Both the position numbers and the translations under genes were made by a program. From Salinivibrio sharmensis (GTDB lineage: Bacteria; Pseudomonadota; Gammaproteobacteria; Enterobacterales; Vibrionaceae), in assembly GCF_001995985.1 (NCBI RefSeq), contig NZ_MUFC01000014.1:1-64000 (forward strand): a stretch of DNA of 64,000 nt, written 5' to 3'. Positions 41,430 to 49,103 of the stretch are shown one piece after another. Below the pieces are notes generated by a model. That model was not told the DNA's origin. It ran no database searches and saw nothing but the letters and a program-made list of their open reading frames with translations. Each line of letters starts with the position of its first letter. Positions within the stretch are counted from its first letter, which is position 1.

Positions 41430-41927
41430 TTATTTTTTTGCTTGGAGTTGTGAGTTATGCGAGGTGAGGGCAGATACTTCTAACAGCGGTGCCGCATCAA
41501 TATCATCGGCGTTCATCATCGAAGAGATACGTTGTACCGATGACAGCAATAACGATTGTTCCCACTCATCTAAACTTTGAAAGCGTGAAATAAAGTTTTC
41601 TTGTAGGGGTTTGGGAGCTTGTTCTAACGCCGCTTCCCCTTGCTCGGTCAAGTGGGCATGCACTTTACGTTTATCAAGCTCACTGCGAACACGCAAAATT
41701 AATCCGCGCTTTTCAAGACGATCAAGAATGGTCGTTGCCGTTGCTTGACTCATATTGGTATGGGTCGAGAGCTTACGAATGGTCACTTGGCCCAGCTCTT
41801 TAATCGCACGCATTAGGACAAGTTGGGGGCCAGTGATCCCGGATACTTTGTTAAGTTTTCGTGAATGCAGGTCTATTGCGCGGATGATTTGCCGCAGCGC
41901 AACCAGTACTTCTTCGTGTTTTTCCAT
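41430..41927 (-). CDS. MarR-family transcriptional regulator
   Basis: A 165-residue winged-helix regulator. The DNA-binding part reads LGQVTIRKLSTHTNMSQATA, TTILDRLEKRGLILR and a wing with SELDKRKVHAHLTEQG. The C-terminal helices should dimerise. No cysteine or obvious ligand site is visible. It is divergent from the imelysin operon and has a palindrome in its upstream region. Its targets are not evident; the aldo/keto reductase or its own gene are candidates. Confidence 0.92.
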   Translation of the reverse strand: MEKHEEVLVALRQIIRAIDLHSRKLNKVSGITGPQLVLMRAIKELGQVTIRKLSTHTNMSQATATTILDRLEKRGLILRVRSELDKRKVHAHLTEQGEAALEQAPKPLQENFISRFQSLDEWEQSLLLSSVQRISSMMNADDIDAAPLLEVSALTSHNSQLQAKK

Positions 41928-42076: not shown

Positions 42077-42291
42077 CAAATTAAATCTAATTTATTGTTA
42101 TTTTTAGCTGTTTCAGTGAGCGGGCGCAAAAAGTGCCATATAGTCATCAATTTAAGCAGTCAAGAGGTCGGATCAGCGTTGCAACAAGTTGCATCAACCA
42201 TGCTTGGAGTGTGGAGATCACAGCTTTGATAATAGCCTCAATTCTTTGTTGCATTTAGTAACATAATGCTTAGAATCTCTCGCATACAAAC

Positions 42292-42310
42292 GATAATAGT
42301 TCTCATAACT
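42292..42310 (+). promoter_or_regulatory. Probable Fur box upstream of the imelysin operon
   Basis: GATAATAGTTCTCATAACT matches about 12 of 19 positions of the classical Fur consensus, including an exact GATAAT arm. It ends 29 bases before the imelysin ATG. A second GATAATAG with a nearby CTCA lies at 42228-42244. Iron repression would suit the operon. Confidence 0.55.
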
Positions 42311-42339
42311 GTTCATATCAAAGCGAAGGACAAAGTACC

Positions 42340-43596
42340 ATGGAAATGACCCCTTTTAAGCGTAACCTTATTGCGCTTTCCTTATTTGCCGCACCTCTGG
42401 GTGTTAATGCGGCGACGCAAGAAGACGTTGTTGAACATTACGCAGATATCGCGCATGCGGTATTCGCAGACTCCCACGCGACCGCGGTCGCGCTGGATGA
42501 GGCCATTGAGGCTTTTACTGCCAGCCCCTCTCAAAAAACCTTTCAGGCAGCAAAAAAAGCATGGCTAGACGCGCGAGTCCCTTATCAGCAATCAGAAGTG
42601 TTCCGTTTTGGCAACGCGATTGTTGATGATTGGGAAGGACAGCTGAACGCGTGGCCATTGGATGAAGGCTTGATTGATTATGTGGCAGACGGTTATCAAG
42701 CCGAACTGGGTAATGCCGGTGCGACAGCAAACATTATTGCCAACCAGAGTATTCAAATTGGTGCGACCGATTTAGATGTGGCTGAGATTACGCCAAAACT
42801 GTTGGCAAGTCTCAATGAGGTAGGCGGGTCAGAAGCCAACGTTGCTTCCGGTTATCATGCGATTGAGTTTTTGCTGTGGGGGCAAGACTTAAATGGCACC
42901 AATCCAGGTGCGGGTGAACGCCCATACTCAGACTTTGCTTACGGGGAAGACTGCACGAACGGCCACTGCGATCGTCGCCGCGCGTACTTGAAAGCGGCCG
43001 CCGCTCTCTTGGTTGATGATCTAGCCTGGATGCGCGATCAGTGGGCGGAAGGTAATAAAGACAACTATCGTGCGAGCCTACTTGCCGATTCAAGCGAAAA
43101 TGGCCTACGCAAAATGCTGTTTGGTATGGGCTCTCTCTCTCTGGGTGAATTGGCGGGTGAGCGTATGAAAGTTGCGTTGGAAGCCAACTCAACAGAAGAT
43201 GAGCACGATTGTTTCTCTGATAACACGCATAACTCGCATTTCTACAATGAGCAGGGCATCTATAACGTGATGATGGGCTCTTACCAGCGTGTTGACGGCA
43301 GCAAGCTGACAGGGCCATCGGTGCTAGATTTGGTAGAGGACAAAAACACCGAAGCGGCAGACGCGATCAAGAAAAGCTTTGAGCAGGCGCGTGAGCAAGT
43401 AAAAACGCTGGTCGTGTCAGCGGAAGAAGACAATGTGCATTTTGATCAATTGATAGCAGCGGGCAACAATGACGGTAACCAACTCGTCAATGCCTCTATT
43501 TCGGCGTTGGTTGACCAAACCAAACACATTGAGAAAGCCGCTCAAATTATCGGCATTGATAATCTCAACCCAGATACCGCGGACCATCAATTCTAA
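42340..43596 (+). CDS. Imelysin-family periplasmic protein (iron-regulated, IrpA/M75 type)
   Basis: A 418-residue exported protein with signal peptide MEMTPFKRNLIALSLFAAPL cleaved near GVNA at residue 24. It is all-helical, with the imelysin GxHxxE motif in SGYHAIEFLLWGQD. A C-terminal repeat half ends in a conserved QLVNASISALVDQTKHIE segment. Imelysin-like proteins are linked to iron acquisition and no protease activity is established. AAGGA lies 9 bases before the ATG. It leads a four-gene set with a di-heme protein, a second imelysin and a DUF1513 protein, under a probable Fur box. Confidence 0.92.
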   Translation: MEMTPFKRNLIALSLFAAPLGVNAATQEDVVEHYADIAHAVFADSHATAVALDEAIEAFTASPSQKTFQAAKKAWLDARVPYQQSEVFRFGNAIVDDWEGQLNAWPLDEGLIDYVADGYQAELGNAGATANIIANQSIQIGATDLDVAEITPKLLASLNEVGGSEANVASGYHAIEFLLWGQDLNGTNPGAGERPYSDFAYGEDCTNGHCDRRRAYLKAAAALLVDDLAWMRDQWAEGNKDNYRASLLADSSENGLRKMLFGMGSLSLGELAGERMKVALEANSTEDEHDCFSDNTHNSHFYNEQGIYNVMMGSYQRVDGSKLTGPSVLDLVEDKNTEAADAIKKSFEQAREQVKTLVVSAEEDNVHFDQLIAAGNNDGNQLVNASISALVDQTKHIEKAAQIIGIDNLNPDTADHQF

Positions 43597-43614
43597 TTGT
43601 CCGCTAATGATGTT

Positions 43615-43638
43615 AAGCCCCGTGCCGCGGGGCTTTTT
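43615..43638 (+). terminator. Intrinsic terminator inside the imelysin operon
   Basis: AAGCCCCG and CGGGGCTT form a stem followed by TTT between the first imelysin gene and the di-heme gene, 8 bases before the latter's ribosome-binding site. Partial readthrough would give more imelysin than downstream products. Confidence 0.8.
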
Positions 43639-43656
43639 GCTTTGTCAGGATACAAC

Positions 43657-45054
43657 ATGAAGTCCAAATTCATTGTTTACCTCGGTGCAATCGGCATCAG
43701 TGCCTTGGTGAGCGCGTCAGCGGTTGCTTTTGAACGCACCTCTGGTGGCCGCACCACGGTGATTAAAGAAGGTGCCAACGCTTTCTCCCAACCTGCCGCT
43801 AACCTACCCATGAGCGAGCGTATCGACTTCAGTGTGGGGAACAGCTTTTTTCGTAATCCCTGGGTGAGCTCGCCGGCTTCAACCGATGCGCGAGATGGCT
43901 TAGGCCCTTTGTTCAATACCAATGGCTGTCAAAATTGTCATATTAAAGACGGCCGTGGGCATCCGCCTTCTCCTGGCGATCCCAACGCCGTGTCTATGTT
44001 GGTGCGATTGAGTGTGCCTGCAATGAGCGAAGCAGAACGGCAGAAATTGATCCAATATGGCAATATTCCCGAGCCAAACTACGGCGGGCAGTTGCAAGAC
44101 TTTGCACTGCCAGGCGCGAAGCCAGAAGGAAAGGTCGCCATCACCTATTCATCCGTCCCCGTGACCTTTGCCGATGGTGAGACCGTCACTCTGCGTCAGC
44201 CACATTTAACGGTTACCGATCTTAATTATGGGCCGATGGCTGAAAATGTTCAGATGTCGGCGCGGATTGCGCCTCCCATGATTGGATTGGGATTGCTGGA
44301 ATCTATCCCTGCGGAAGACATATACGCACTGGCTGATCCTGATGATGCCAATAGTGATGGGATCTCAGGACGACCCAACCAGGTGTGGGATATCGAAAAG
44401 CAGCGTACGGCGCTTGGCCGGTTTGGTTGGAAGGCAGGGCTACCCACGGTTAACCAACAAAACGCGGCGGCCTTCAATGGCGATGTGGGATTAACCACCT
44501 CCATGTTTCCTCATCACAATTGTATGCCGTCACAGTCTGTGTGCGACGAGATGCCCAATGGTGGTGATCCAGAAGTCAGCGACAATATCCTCGGGTTTGT
44601 AGAGTTTTACGCCCGTCATTTGGCGGTACCAGCGCGTCGCAATATGCAGGATCCGGCAGTGAAAAAGGGGCAAGATACCTTCGTTCAAGCCGGCTGCAAT
44701 GCGTGCCATGTTGAGTCGTTTACTACCGCAAAACGCCCCGATCTTAGTGCCCTGAGCGAACAGCGTATTCATCCTTATACGGATTTGTTGTTGCATGATA
44801 TGGGAGCGGGGCTAGCTGATCATCGAGGGGAGTTTATCGCCAACGGCAGAGAGTGGCGAACGCCGCCTTTATGGGGCATTGGATACACCAAAGAAGTGAA
44901 TGCGGATGCCACCTATCTGCACGATGGTCGCGCGCGTACCCTCATGGAAGCCATTTTATGGCATGATGGCGAAGCCGCCAGTGCGAAACAGCGCGTGCTG
45001 GCGATGCCGAAAGCGGAGCGTGATGCCTTAATCGCGTTTTTACGTTCCTTATAA
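43657..45054 (+). CDS. Di-heme c-type oxidoreductase (DHOR/DUF1111)
   Basis: A 465-residue periplasmic cytochrome with a signal peptide in residues 1-24 (ending SASAVA). Two CxxCH heme sites are CQNCH at 91-95 and CNACH at 347-351. The family blocks NSFFRNPWV, SARIAPPMIGLGLLESIP and RTPPLWGIGYTKEVN are present. DHOR proteins are thiol-oxidoreductase-like or peroxidase-like, and the true substrate is unknown. ATG 43657 follows AGGA by 6 bases. In the imelysin context a role in redox cycling of iron in the periplasm is plausible. Confidence 0.92.
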   Translation: MKSKFIVYLGAIGISALVSASAVAFERTSGGRTTVIKEGANAFSQPAANLPMSERIDFSVGNSFFRNPWVSSPASTDARDGLGPLFNTNGCQNCHIKDGRGHPPSPGDPNAVSMLVRLSVPAMSEAERQKLIQYGNIPEPNYGGQLQDFALPGAKPEGKVAITYSSVPVTFADGETVTLRQPHLTVTDLNYGPMAENVQMSARIAPPMIGLGLLESIPAEDIYALADPDDANSDGISGRPNQVWDIEKQRTALGRFGWKAGLPTVNQQNAAAFNGDVGLTTSMFPHHNCMPSQSVCDEMPNGGDPEVSDNILGFVEFYARHLAVPARRNMQDPAVKKGQDTFVQAGCNACHVESFTTAKRPDLSALSEQRIHPYTDLLLHDMGAGLADHRGEFIANGREWRTPPLWGIGYTKEVNADATYLHDGRARTLMEAILWHDGEAASAKQRVLAMPKAERDALIAFLRSL

Positions 45055-45079
45055 CAACAATATGCTGGAGTCTTGTCGC

Positions 45080-46093
45080 ATGCGTTTTCGACTCAATCCT
45101 ATCGCTGCGCTCTCTCTGAGCGCCACGGTATTTCTCGGTGGGTGCCTATCTCAAACCGAGACTGGGCCTAATCATGGCCTATGGCAACTACAAAAGCAGC
45201 GAAGTGAGCAGTTTCTTTCTGCGACCACGGATCTAGCTAAAACCACGCAATCGGTCTGTACTCAGGGTACGCCCATTGATGATGCGCGCCAAGCGTGGAA
45301 GACAGTGATGGCCAATTGGATGCCGTTACAAGGGGTAGAAAAAGGGTCTGAGGACGCCTTGGCGCAAAGTTGGCGTATTCAGTTTTATCCTGACAAAAAG
45401 AACACCACTGGGCGTAAAATAAACGCTTTACTTGCCAGTGATACACAGTGGACCGCGGAGGCGTTGGCTGAGCAAAGTGTGGCCGTGCAAGGCGTCGGCG
45501 CGATGGAGTGGTTGCTTTATGATCAGCAAGCTGACTTAAGTCAACCGAAGCACTGTGAAGTAGCGATGGCGGTCAGTGCTCGCTTGCAACAAACGGCATC
45601 CGCGCTCAATGCGGCTTGGCAGCACAACCCTTGGCGTGGCATGCCGCCTTCGATGGCGGTGTCAGAAAAGCTCGGTGCGCTGACCCATCAGCTGGATTAT
45701 GTGCTGAAGAAACTGTCTGGCCCTCTGGGTAAGCCGGGCTTTCCTAACCCTTACCAAGGGGAAGCGTGGCGCTCGCGGCATTCTCTCACACTGTTACGCC
45801 AAAGCATCAAAGCGATGCAAACTCAATATCACGCTGAAGGCGGCATTGAGCAAGCGCTCCGTGAGCGAGGCTATGATGAGGTCGCGGATCGTGTCAGCGA
45901 GCATTGGCAGTTGGCGTATAACAGCGTGCCACAAGATGGTGAGTCTTTATTTGACAGGTTAAATAGCGTTGCGGGGTACCGTGACATGCTCACTGTGTAC
46001 AATAATCTTGAGTATCTCAAATTGGTGCTTGGCGGCCAGGTCGCACAAGATTTAGGTATTATCGTTGGGTTTAATGCATCAGATGGAGACTAG
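45080..46093 (+). CDS. Imelysin-family lipoprotein
   Basis: A 337-residue predicted lipoprotein with lipobox LGGC (Cys at about 22). It belongs to the second imelysin subfamily: the motif region reads GVGAMEWLLYDQ, without the histidine of the upstream paralogue. It ends with NLEYLKLVLGGQVAQDLGI. ATG 45080 has GGAG 9 bases upstream; ATG 45062 has none. The end overlaps the DUF1513 gene, indicating translational coupling. Confidence 0.88.
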   Translation: MRFRLNPIAALSLSATVFLGGCLSQTETGPNHGLWQLQKQRSEQFLSATTDLAKTTQSVCTQGTPIDDARQAWKTVMANWMPLQGVEKGSEDALAQSWRIQFYPDKKNTTGRKINALLASDTQWTAEALAEQSVAVQGVGAMEWLLYDQQADLSQPKHCEVAMAVSARLQQTASALNAAWQHNPWRGMPPSMAVSEKLGALTHQLDYVLKKLSGPLGKPGFPNPYQGEAWRSRHSLTLLRQSIKAMQTQYHAEGGIEQALRERGYDEVADRVSEHWQLAYNSVPQDGESLFDRLNSVAGYRDMLTVYNNLEYLKLVLGGQVAQDLGIIVGFNASDGD

Positions 46094-47180
46094 TTTAAAG
46101 CGCCGCCGCCTATTAAAAGCGGCTCTGATGGGCGCAGCGCTGCCTACAGTGGTGAATGCGTTGAGTGGTTGTCGTGGCAATCCTACTGCCGACCGTTGCG
46201 AGTTACTCGGCTGCGCGCTGAGCAGTGATGGTTCGTTTACGGTCGTTGGTGCTGATCGAAACGGGCAGCCTTTGTTTCGGTTGCCTTTACCTGACCGAGG
46301 GCACGGTGTTGCAGCTCAGCGGCGAGAAGTTGGATCGCTTGGGGTGGCGTTTGCGCGACGCCCGGGTGATTTTATGCAGGTGTTTGATTATCAACGTGGC
46401 GTGACGTTGTCACAGGTAGCGGTCAGCGCAGAACGCTACTTTTATGGCCATGGTGTGATTTCTGATGATGGCCAATGGTTATATACCACTGAAGGAAAAC
46501 GTCAAACCAGCGAGGGCGTGGTCGGTGTTTATCGACTGAGCGAGCACGGCCAGGTGAAAAAAGTGCGTGAGATAAGCGGCTTTGGGATTGGTCCTCATGA
46601 AATCGCGCTGGCGGATACGAACACACTGGTGGTGGGGGTCGGTGGCATGCATACCGATGGCCGCACTGTGCTAAACATCGATTCAATGTCACCGGCGTTG
46701 GTGTACATCGACATCGACACGGGTAAGGTGGTTGAGCGTGCCGAATTAGCCAACAAAAAGCTGAGTATTCGTCATTTGATGGTATCAAATGAGGGCTATG
46801 TGGTGACGGGGCAGCAATACCATGGTCAGGATAATGCCCCCTTAGTGGCCATTCACCGTCGTGGTGAGCCGATGACAATGCTCAATGCCACCCCTGAGCA
46901 ATGGGCGCGATTTAACAACTATGTGGCGAGTATCGCGACACTCAATGGCTGGGTAGTGGCGACCTCGCCCAGAGGCAATTGCTACGGTGTCTGGTCATTA
47001 GACACGAAAAATATGATAGGTTTGCATCCATTAGTGGATGCCTCTGGTGCCAGCCGTGACGGTGATGTGATCAATTTAAGTTCAGGGGGCGGCAAAATGG
47101 TGACCCTTGATAGCGCACACCATCCCGATTATCAGATGACGCCAGTACGATGGGATAATCATTGGATAACGCTGGTGTAA
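46083..47180 (+). CDS. DUF1513 protein with Tat-like signal
   Basis: A protein of about 365 residues with a twin-arginine-like signal LKRRRLLKAALMGAALP at residues 5-22. The rest is rich in beta strands, suggesting a propeller, with repeated short blocks such as GHGVISDDGQWLYTTE and GIGPHEIALA. DUF1513 proteins commonly accompany imelysin and di-heme genes; biochemical role unknown. Starts at TTG 46065, ATG 46074 or ATG 46083 are possible, all overlapping the previous gene. Tat export would suggest a folded cofactor before export. Confidence 0.88.
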   Translation: METSLKRRRLLKAALMGAALPTVVNALSGCRGNPTADRCELLGCALSSDGSFTVVGADRNGQPLFRLPLPDRGHGVAAQRREVGSLGVAFARRPGDFMQVFDYQRGVTLSQVAVSAERYFYGHGVISDDGQWLYTTEGKRQTSEGVVGVYRLSEHGQVKKVREISGFGIGPHEIALADTNTLVVGVGGMHTDGRTVLNIDSMSPALVYIDIDTGKVVERAELANKKLSIRHLMVSNEGYVVTGQQYHGQDNAPLVAIHRRGEPMTMLNATPEQWARFNNYVASIATLNGWVVATSPRGNCYGVWSLDTKNMIGLHPLVDASGASRDGDVINLSSGGGKMVTLDSAHHPDYQMTPVRWDNHWITLV

Positions 47181-47231: not shown

Positions 47232-47330
47232 GTTTCAGTGCGGTGTGGGGAGCGAGAAAAAATCAGTCGATGATTTTGTCGAGACGGGGGCAAAATTTGC
47301 CATAATTAAAGAATGGATGAGGAGGGGCGT

Positions 47331-49103
47331 ATGGTGAGAAGGCACGGTGCCTGGTTGGCTAACCTTCTGATAGGATTTTGTTTTTGGGTAACCCCCGTCA
47401 TGGCAAATGAGACGCTCGAGGCCGGTGGTATGCGGTTTCTGGCACCATCCACCTCGGCGCTCTCGAGCTCAGATCAAGCGGCGTCGGCTGAGCAAACTCT
47501 GTCGGCTGACGATCATCGTCAACGCGCCTATCAGTATGCGCGCGACTGGTTGGAATCGGCAGCCCCCGATGCCACTGTCTTGGCCTACTCCTCAGCGCTG
47601 GCTCAAGACTACCTCGATAATGGGTTTTCGCTGCTTTGGACCCAGGATGCAGCGCGGGATGAGCTGGCAACGCAAGTTAATGTGATTTCATTGGCCAGCT
47701 TCAGTCCGGAATTTGAGTGGCGCGCCTGGCAACTTCGCCAACTCCGCCAGCAGGGTAGCGACACCGCGTATGATATTTTTGCTACCGACACGGCGTATGC
47801 CTTAATGAGTTACCTGGATGCGGTGTCCGATAAAGGTATGCGCTGGTTTTTTGGCTCTTTGCATCACACGCCGCTGCCCGAGCCATCCGAGTCTCAGCGC
47901 GCGTCCTTTTTTCAAGCGGGTTTGGGGCCGGCGTTGCCCGCTTTTCTGCGCAAGCTTCGGCCACAGCATCCGCAATATACCGCGCTGATTAAGCAGATTG
48001 TTCGCTTGCAACGTCAAGCCCGCTCAGTGTGGCCCAGCGTGACCAGCGATGGATTGATTTACCCTGACCAAGCGGTAGCGATCCCCTTGGCGCTCAACTT
48101 AGTTGATAACCTGCGGGTGCAGGGATATTGGGGGGACAGTCAACGGTTAGAGGCACTGGATGGTAAAACGGTGCAATATGGTGGCGATCTACTCGATGCC
48201 GTTAAACGGTTTCAGTCACAACACGGACTGAGTGTGGATGGCATCATTGGCCCATCAACGTTGAAATGGCTTAATTTAGATGCGTCGGCGCGTATCCGGC
48301 TGCTGGCGCTTAATGCCGAGCGGTTACGGTTATGGCCCCAGCAGCAACCGGATCGCATTGTGGTTAACATCCCAGATTATCGTATGCGTCTGTGGGCTAA
48401 CGATCAGAATGTATTCGAGAGCAAAGTGGTAGTCGGACGTCAATCTAGACGCACGCCGCTGTTCTCGTCACGACTCGACTCTGTGGTACTCAATCCAAGC
48501 TGGAATGTGCCTCGGAGCATAGTGCAAAAAGATATCTTGCCCAAGCTGGTTGATGGGCACGAGTATTTGTCTCAGCATCAATATCGTATTTTGCCCAATT
48601 GGCAAAGTGACACCCAGATTGACCCTAGCTCGATTGATTGGCAAAAAGTGTCAGTCGACGGGTTTCCCTACCGGCTTCAGCAGGCACCAGGTCGAGGCAA
48701 CGCCCTCGGAAAATACAAATTCAACACGCCCAATCGTAATGCTATCTACCTGCATGATACGCCAGCGCAAAGCTTATTCAGCCGGTCACGGCGTGCATTT
48801 AGCTCCGGTTGCATCCGTGTCGAGCAAGCGGAGCAACTGGCGGACTTATTATTGGATTTATCGGGTAAGCAGCTGACTGACTACCAGTCCTATATTGATA
48901 GAACCCAGACCAAGTGGGTACCGCTCAAAAAACGTTTAGCGGTACAGACCATTTACCAGACAGCTTGGGTCACGGATGACGGGGAGGTGGCCTTTCGTGA
49001 TGATGTGTACGCCTATGATGTCCCCGCAAAACGGAAGATCACCACACAAAAGCCCAGTTATTTAACCCAGCAGCGTCATTCTGTGGCGGTGCAAGCGCAA
49101 TAG
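47331..49103 (+). CDS. ldtD: L,D-transpeptidase LdtD (YcbB)
   Basis: A 590-residue periplasmic enzyme that forms 3-3 crosslinks in peptidoglycan. It has a signal peptide to about residue 24. A peptidoglycan-binding motif (AVKRFQSQHGLSVDGIIGPS) lies near 290-310. The YkuD catalytic domain contains IYLHDTPAQSLF and SSGCIRV with Cys at about residue 494. GGAGG before ATG 47331 favours this start over ATG 47313. In E. coli the gene follows mukB directly; here it is 12.8 kb away. Confidence 0.94.
   Translation: MVRRHGAWLANLLIGFCFWVTPVMANETLEAGGMRFLAPSTSALSSSDQAASAEQTLSADDHRQRAYQYARDWLESAAPDATVLAYSSALAQDYLDNGFSLLWTQDAARDELATQVNVISLASFSPEFEWRAWQLRQLRQQGSDTAYDIFATDTAYALMSYLDAVSDKGMRWFFGSLHHTPLPEPSESQRASFFQAGLGPALPAFLRKLRPQHPQYTALIKQIVRLQRQARSVWPSVTSDGLIYPDQAVAIPLALNLVDNLRVQGYWGDSQRLEALDGKTVQYGGDLLDAVKRFQSQHGLSVDGIIGPSTLKWLNLDASARIRLLALNAERLRLWPQQQPDRIVVNIPDYRMRLWANDQNVFESKVVVGRQSRRTPLFSSRLDSVVLNPSWNVPRSIVQKDILPKLVDGHEYLSQHQYRILPNWQSDTQIDPSSIDWQKVSVDGFPYRLQQAPGRGNALGKYKFNTPNRNAIYLHDTPAQSLFSRSRRAFSSGCIRVEQAEQLADLLLDLSGKQLTDYQSYIDRTQTKWVPLKKRLAVQTIYQTAWVTDDGEVAFRDDVYAYDVPAKRKITTQKPSYLTQQRHSVAVQAQ

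Follow-up and report, generated by a model that had tools for sequence, protein, structure and literature searches.

The window analysed here is a 64,000-nucleotide (nt) stretch of contig NZ_MUFC01000014.1 from Salinivibrio sharmensis. It contains an operon of four genes on the forward strand (42340-47180) encoding, in this order, a secreted imelysin (IM1), a di-heme oxidoreductase (DHOR, or DUF1111), an imelysin-like lipoprotein (IM2) and a DUF1513 protein. The principal result is that IM2 ends in a conserved C-terminal tail, GFNxxDGD, that is linked to DUF1513 across genomes, while DUF1513 is predicted to be a propeller with a ring of five invariant histidines. What is new is the proposed partner relation of this portable-looking tail and the predicted five-His propeller. 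The evidence comprises the observed gene order, a conserved Fur box, the conservation of the tail and its linkage to DUF1513, and the invariance of the histidines together with their register on the modelled strands. The genes and the tail are located as follows:

42340-43596, + strand: IM1, secreted imelysin (PF09375); phmmer match to PDB 7xrx, 1.1e-160
43657-45054, + strand: DHOR/DUF1111, di-heme oxidoreductase (PF06537, by Pfam)
45062-46093, + strand: IM2, imelysin-like lipoprotein with lipobox LGGC and a GxxxxE motif; relative PDB 3pf0, 2.1e-10
46067-46090, + strand: C-terminal tail of IM2, GFNASDGD, with the stop codon directly after it
46074-47180, + strand: DUF1513 (PF07433), with a twin-arginine translocation (Tat) signal and a predicted seven-bladed propeller

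Among the four operon proteins IM2 shows the lowest conservation. In 26 hand-picked, diverse IM2 rows (alignment A4), the invariant columns are limited to one Trp, the Glu of GxxxxE and the terminal D-G-D; L174, the sole exception to the DGD ending, is not part of this alignment. IM2 ends exactly in DGD at 125 of 126 loci (79/79 in Vibrionaceae, the window included, and 46/47 distant loci), and the longer ending GFNxxDGD was found in 113 of the 126, among them all 79 Vibrionaceae. The 47 distant tails, counted by eye, comprise 34 with GFN, 10 with GFS and 3 with another triplet. IM2 was missed on the first pass in L027, L028, L029, L104 and L137; that of L027 was found later, and L104 and L137 lie outside the 79. 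The solved relative IPPA ends in VGFNSTDGD, and its residues 384-389 are disordered in the crystal (PMC3143127), which fits a free docking tail.

The linkage of the tail to DUF1513 was followed with a DNA pattern, G-F-[N/S]-x-x-D-G-D-stop, in genome samples of three ranks, a class, a family and a phylum (by inference Gammaproteobacteria, Vibrionaceae and Pseudomonadota), which share some genomes. The pattern gave 57 matches in the 398 phylum genomes, against 2 for a reversed-pattern control, and 56 of the 57 sit 149-334 nt upstream of a DUF1513 match on the same strand. The single match away from DUF1513, in G394, ends no open reading frame (ORF) of at least 80 residues in its stretch and was taken as chance. 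In the 185 class genomes the pattern occurred 10 times, with 9 of the matches in genomes that have DUF1513 and 1 in G038.

A further case was found at L028 (genome G025), where DUF1513 occurs with no imelysin or DHOR match in a 13-kilobase stretch. Because the docking idea predicted a tail there, the C-terminus encoded by the gene directly upstream of DUF1513 was examined. This gene encodes a 199-residue lipoprotein that has no Pfam match at E 0.01 and ends in GFNSDDGD. Its homologues in other genomes, L247 (E 6e-17) and L248 (E 3e-4), have no tail. The tail appears, from these sequences, to be portable between lipoproteins.

The structure model of DUF1513, built from 62 aligned sequences, has a mean predicted local distance difference test (pLDDT) score of 90.8, and its strand pattern predicts seven blades with the C-terminal strand closing the ring. 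Matches to the PDB by VIA-align were propellers, with rows within one Z unit counted as tied. Among them were a YVTN propeller at Z 30.0, nitrous oxide reductase (Z 29.2, root-mean-square deviation (rmsd) 3.1, 308 aligned), thiocyanate dehydrogenase (Z 26.8, rmsd 3.2, 298 aligned) and the BtuG-type chain 8blw_B (Z 26.5). The plain Foldseek list was headed by generic G-beta/WD40 chains. Because generic propellers tie or nearly tie with the named ones, these matches indicate the propeller fold only. The five invariant histidines fall on the model as follows:

46302-46304, + strand: His77 codon; innermost strand of blade 2
46449-46451, + strand: His126 codon; innermost strand of blade 3
46596-46598, + strand: His175 codon; one residue ahead of the innermost strand of blade 4
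46773-46775, + strand: His234 codon; innermost strand of blade 5
47160-47162, + strand: His363 codon; C-terminal innermost strand of blade 1

These residues are conserved in 62 of 62 rows of alignment A2 and in all 47 distant DUF1513 proteins that stand beside IM2. In a looser alignment of full ORFs, which includes four DUF1513 proteins without IM2, the five are present in 49-50 of 51 rows. (Rows that share more than 92% identity with a preceding one, or that are too short, are absent from alignments A2 and A3; L137 was removed by hand.) DUF1513 has 13 histidines in all, and the invariant five are the only ones on or next to strands assigned as innermost; the chance that five random positions would all fall in this zone is 2.4e-4, a post hoc value given that the zone was defined after the histidines had been seen. 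The other invariant residues in the distant set are R75, R95, Q248, Y283 and D361, with R233 conserved in 46 of 47. By propeller topology these would lie near the starts of inner strands or the ends of the next strands, that is, at the same channel mouth as the histidines, and taken together the invariant residues resemble a binding site for a metal or another ligand. Known propellers with such His rings hold copper or iron. In nitrous oxide reductase and thiocyanate dehydrogenase the metal is held by inner-strand His, and the seven-bladed propeller is shared; DUF1513, however, has five invariant His against seven in the CuZ centre, and it shows no detectable similarity to the NosZ profile. 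A comparison by hhalign found only a 10-column signal-peptide match with a probability of 1.8%, using a shallow NosZ profile of 10 sequences, and nos_propeller (PF18764) has no match in the genome of the window. Membership of DUF1513 in the NosZ family was rejected because of this lack of profile similarity, and the likeness is taken as an analogy of fold and site.

Three DUF1513 homologues (L029, L198 and L199) have no tail-bearing gene in their stretch. All of their aligned histidines are kept, L199 being unaligned at His363, and since tail-less homologues keep them, the His site appears to have a use without the tail. The same three lack the full set of R75, R95, Q248, Y283 and D361, while L028, whose upstream lipoprotein bears the tail, keeps the set. 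The more interesting reading is that this set forms a tail docking site beside the His ring. An earlier reading of the window from its sequence alone (the sequence-only reading) had proposed that DUF1513 is a structural partner, which is probably too modest, as its invariant residues suggest a site and it is matched to the conserved tail of IM2.

The control of the operon by iron was assessed by scoring candidate Fur sites against a 7-1-7 consensus, TGATAATNATTATCA, for which the maximum is 14. Two copies of GATAATAG lie upstream of IM1:

42227-42241, + strand: first GATAATAG, left half-site only; kept in L060 (S. siamensis), absent from L062 and L063
42291-42305, + strand: Fur box CGATAATAGTTCTCA (the second GATAATAG); 11/14 against this consensus

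Taken alone, the box at 42291-42305 is weak: shuffling the upstream region of the window operon gives a score as good in 5.5% of cases, and the window holds 8 sites that score at least 11/14. It is credible because it is conserved across loci. A site of at least 11/14 precedes IM1 at 76 of the 90 loci; random windows reached this score in 106 of 1840 cases, and regions ahead of the other ORFs of these loci did so in 15 of 379. At 12/14 the latter control falls to 2 of 379, and 48 of the 90 loci reach at least 12/14. In 52 of the 90 the site beats 95% of the locus's own shuffles, and it mostly lies 45-75 nt ahead of the IM1 start codon. The equivalent position in three Salinivibrio relatives scores 12/14 (L060), 12/14 (L063) and 10/14 (L062). 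Scores under 11/14 were obtained at 14 loci, among them L020-L023, L026, L027 and eight from Vibrionaceae; the survey placed start codons by a simple guess, which gave wrong or truncated starts at some loci, such as L061.

Published work on related operons agrees with this picture. The Fur-regulated operon PA4370-4373 of Pseudomonas aeruginosa contains two imelysins and one di-heme protein (PMC3143127), VC1264 and VC1265 orthologues are among the iron-limitation transcripts common to Aliivibrio salmonicida and Vibrio cholerae (PMC4324432), and VC1264, VC1265 and VC1266-7 are tabulated with iron-uptake genes in a study of the IurV regulator (PMC7600106). Repression of the operon by iron, probably through the predicted Fur box, is well supported. 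The sequence-only reading had suggested it from two Fur-like sites; iron control remains the likely reading, with one conserved box and published orthologues behind it, but the copy at 42227-42241 is a half-site and probably not a Fur box.

From these results the following model is proposed. Fur would repress an operon whose four products may form one periplasmic iron-handling complex. IM1 and IM2 would bind or present the metal, presumably iron. DHOR would exchange electrons with it, in all likelihood by oxidising Fe(II), the part proposed for the peroxidase or the multicopper oxidase in EfeUOB and Fet3/Ftr1. The DUF1513 propeller would hold a five-His metal centre at the mouth of its channel, and IM2 would dock on it by the free GFNxxDGD-COOH tail, so that three carboxylates (Asp, Asp and the C-terminus) reach the His/Arg-lined mouth. 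A Fur-repressed periplasmic iron-handling complex with the IM2 tail docked on a DUF1513 His-ring metal centre is given a probability of about 0.5, and any particular identity of the metal is rated as less probable than this tail-docked centre. A wider proposal is offered tentatively, at somewhat worse than even odds: that DUF1513 is a new His5 metal propeller, that GFNxxDGD-COOH is a portable tag on lipoproteins of different folds whose carboxylates complete or gate the metal site, and that the two make up a device for metal handover, or for redox chemistry, on which Pseudomonadota widely draw when starved of iron.

Several observations weigh against the docked-tail model. The predicted His ring depends on the strand register of a model, and most loci were picked for DUF1513 or a close DHOR, so that the gene-order counts are partly built in; the tail pattern searches are free of this bias. 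The strict tail pattern is missing from 23 of 79 genomes with DUF1513, a list that omits the weakest matches. The 13 of these 23 that were inspected all carry DGD variants (GFS or another triplet, or DGDGS). The distant IM2 of L174, which ends in DGDGS, is the only extended tail among the 47. In G038 an IM2 with the tail GFNADDGD stands beside DHOR with no DUF1513 after it or found elsewhere in the assembly, which is 81% complete, and an IM2-like protein in G149 ends in ILDADGD where no DUF1513 was found. The non-imelysin tail is a case from one genome, and the pattern occurs in 0 of 3 other genomes of its family. L029, L198 and L199 are weak, diverged homologues, and their loss of residues may be plain divergence. 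Most of the 30 neighbouring proteins that were scanned have no link to metals. Two imelysins, one of them of the IM2 type, showed no significant effect of ferric ion, and their melting temperatures fell with heme (PMC3143127).

The alternatives differ in what they take the tail, the His site and DHOR to be for. If DUF1513 acted as an enzyme on the tail, modifying or processing it as a substrate or maturation tag, and DHOR were the source of oxidising equivalents, a part that MauG plays for its own partner protein, then a tail far more conserved than the body of IM2, its presence on a non-imelysin lipoprotein and the extra MauG-type genes at four DUF1513 loci would all fit. The tail, however, contains no typical target of oxidation, no DHOR match was found in the 13-kilobase stretch of L028, and DUF1513 homologues without a nearby tail keep their histidines; we consider such an enzyme unlikely, though a live rival. 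Oxidation could instead be directed at the imelysins, with DHOR acting as a MauG/MbnH-like enzyme on a Trp (for example Trp86 of IM2 or Trp75 of IM1) to build the metal site and DUF1513 serving as the assembly platform. MbnP/MbnH provides the analogy, and the residues are well conserved: Trp86 in 26/26 rows of A4 and 96% of 47 rows, and Trp75 in 45/45. Conservation of this kind also has a structural reason, as PIBO has six Trp near its domain interface (PMC3143127), and DHOR shows no match to CCP_MauG (PF03150); its model (pLDDT 57.9) is too poor to judge the heme ligands. This second oxidising enzyme is likewise a live rival, but an improbable one, and less likely than an enzyme acting on the tail.

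The cargo is a separate matter. The system might handle another metal or oxyanion (copper, zinc or molybdate) under iron starvation, a proposal that otherwise overlaps with the docked-tail model. Nitrous oxide reductase and thiocyanate dehydrogenase, whose propellers hold copper, are among the structural matches of DUF1513. EfeM, a protein with an imelysin domain, binds Cu, Fe and Zn (PMC9174327), and P. aeruginosa IcmP is reported to take part in molybdate uptake (review PMC8602904), which also counts against iron as the cargo. The conserved Fur box, the published control of orthologues by Fur and iron, and a binding-protein ABC transporter, presumably for ferric cargo, after the operon in L026 argue the other way, and a different cargo is judged doubtful, at about the level of the tail-modifying enzyme. 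Finally, the tail could be kept merely through the overlap of the IM2 end with the DUF1513 start, by translational coupling; in the window and several other loci the DGD codons do hold a possible DUF1513 ATG. This was rejected as the cause of tail conservation because DGD persists in loci without the overlap: the nearest plausible DUF1513 start falls after the IM2 stop at L024 (+31), L193 (+35), L177 (+37) and L192 (+69) with DGD unchanged. In addition, GACGG codons supply no ATG, and the tail is also on the L028 lipoprotein. Coupling is accordingly regarded as very improbable.

The window is an ordinary member of the PA4370-PA4373/VC1264-VC1266 type of operon, with the same imelysin and di-heme families and probable iron control. 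The genes have the same order on one strand, and GxHxxE is found in the first imelysin and GxxxxE in the second. The V. cholerae imelysin pair is VC1264 and VC1266, and the IM2 family is defined by GxxxxE (PMC3143127). DUF1513 as the fourth gene of this type is taken from the loci compared here; in the text of PMC3143127 that was available, PA4373 is only named as the end of the operon, with no fold, role or tail given, and the terms "DGD" and "tail" are absent from its main text. In the open literature searched, this was the only paper to join an imelysin with DUF1111, or at least three of PA4370-PA4373 with iron, and no mention was found of DUF1513, alone or with an imelysin, although absence in print is not thereby proven. 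The association and the iron response are not new, as they have been published for P. aeruginosa and V. cholerae. The predicted five-His propeller and the DGD tail were found in none of the papers searched and are new relative to them.

Compared with EfeUOB/EfeM, the operon shares the imelysin domain and a periplasmic heme peroxidase-like partner but lacks the EfeU permease: no EfeU/Ftr1 permease domain was matched by Pfam among the four operon proteins. We know of no Efe counterpart of IM2 or DUF1513. The BtuG type is a propeller lipoprotein at an outer-membrane transporter, whereas neither the window operon nor the set of 30 scanned neighbour proteins includes a TonB receptor. Imelysin operons are widespread iron-starvation loci, and how imelysins work in iron transport was left open by the 2011 structure paper (PMC3143127). 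If the tail does dock into the His ring, there would be a defined contact, a site and a short peptide to work with, and DUF1513 would gain a function. The tag on a second, non-imelysin lipoprotein would be a handle for finding clients by a simple sequence search.

The composition of the operon in the window agrees with what the sequence-only reading had described, namely four genes of these families with a GxHxxE motif in the secreted imelysin, two hemes in the oxidoreductase, a lipoprotein as the second imelysin and a Tat-type DUF1513. Pfam E-values are 5.1e-86 for IM1 (Peptidase_M75), 4.6e-107 for DHOR, 3.2e-38 for IM2 (Peptidase_M75) and 2.9e-97 for DUF1513, the last with a score of 325.8 bits against a gathering score of 27. 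By these profiles the genome has two imelysins and one DHOR, all within the operon, and one DUF1513. The N-terminus of DUF1513 reads as a Tat-type RR-x-LLK signal with a possible lipobox, LSGC, and the GxxxxE of IM2 lacks the His. DHOR matches PF06537, with PF00034 at E 0.001 in addition. The start of DHOR is more likely the ATG at 43657 than the listed TTG at 43597; IM2 probably starts at 45080, and DUF1513 probably at 46074 or 46083, overlapping the end of IM2. The closest named relative found was Salinivibrio siamensis, with 99% identity in DHOR. The motifs of IM1 and DHOR are located as follows:

42850-42867, + strand: codons of GYHAIE, the GxHxxE of IM1 (residues 171-176)
43927-43941 and 44695-44709, + strand: the two CxxCH heme motifs of DHOR

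Loci with a close DHOR were collected with the DHOR protein as the query. A first pass over 92 loci, made up of 80 Vibrionaceae, the window and 11 others, found the order IM1-DHOR-IM2-DUF1513 intact in 85. The seven remaining are L028 and L029 (DUF1513 only), L024, which has two DHOR genes, L027, and three in which ORFs are split, missing or additional. With profiles, the whole order was recovered at 45 of the 51 distant loci that hold DUF1513. Along with the operon of PMC3143127, this bears out the earlier statement that the gene association is a known one. DUF1513 scored above the cut-off in 12 of the 185 class genomes, 91 of 121 family genomes and 80 of the 398 phylum genomes. Two DHOR genes in succession occur in the operons of L024 and L180.

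The companion genes are known from 30 hand-picked neighbour proteins, chosen from a list of 475 candidate ORFs, many of them spurious. A multicopper oxidase gene lies between IM1 and DHOR in L174 and L175, and an ApbE gene does so in L176. A MauG-type di-heme peroxidase gene was found at L019, L022, L170 and L172. The transporter of L026 follows DUF1513 directly. Some of these genes (multicopper oxidase, MauG-type and ABC transporter) fit the periplasmic redox and iron handling suggested by the sequence-only reading, but iron binding by both imelysins, which it had assumed, is not established (PMC3143127). The other neighbours are gyrase, sulfotransferases, an rRNA methyltransferase, chemotaxis, EAL/GGDEF, MFS and metabolic proteins, or gave no match. 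In L023 (3729-5939) an FMN_bind/Fer4_5 protein stands beside DUF1513 on the opposite strand.

Beside the window operon, a divergent gene at 41430-41927 resembles a MarR-type regulator and the downstream gene at 47313-49103 resembles an L,D-transpeptidase, both named by sequence reading. Elsewhere, the IM1-DHOR-IM2-like operon of L279 (4531-10300) continues with genes for a fatty acid hydroxylase family protein and a MauG-type peroxidase instead of DUF1513, and its IM2-like protein ends in ILDADGD. A second imelysin context, with no DUF1513 nearby, was seen in L280-L283, where the imelysins end in GDND or SDSD; acidic C-termini may be more widespread in this family. The neighbours in L280-L283 include a protein of the size of a TonB receptor, with the receptor domain confirmed in L283 only, as well as a vitamin-K-dependent gamma-carboxylase-like HTTM protein in L282 and L283 and a DUF4856 protein in L280 and L283.

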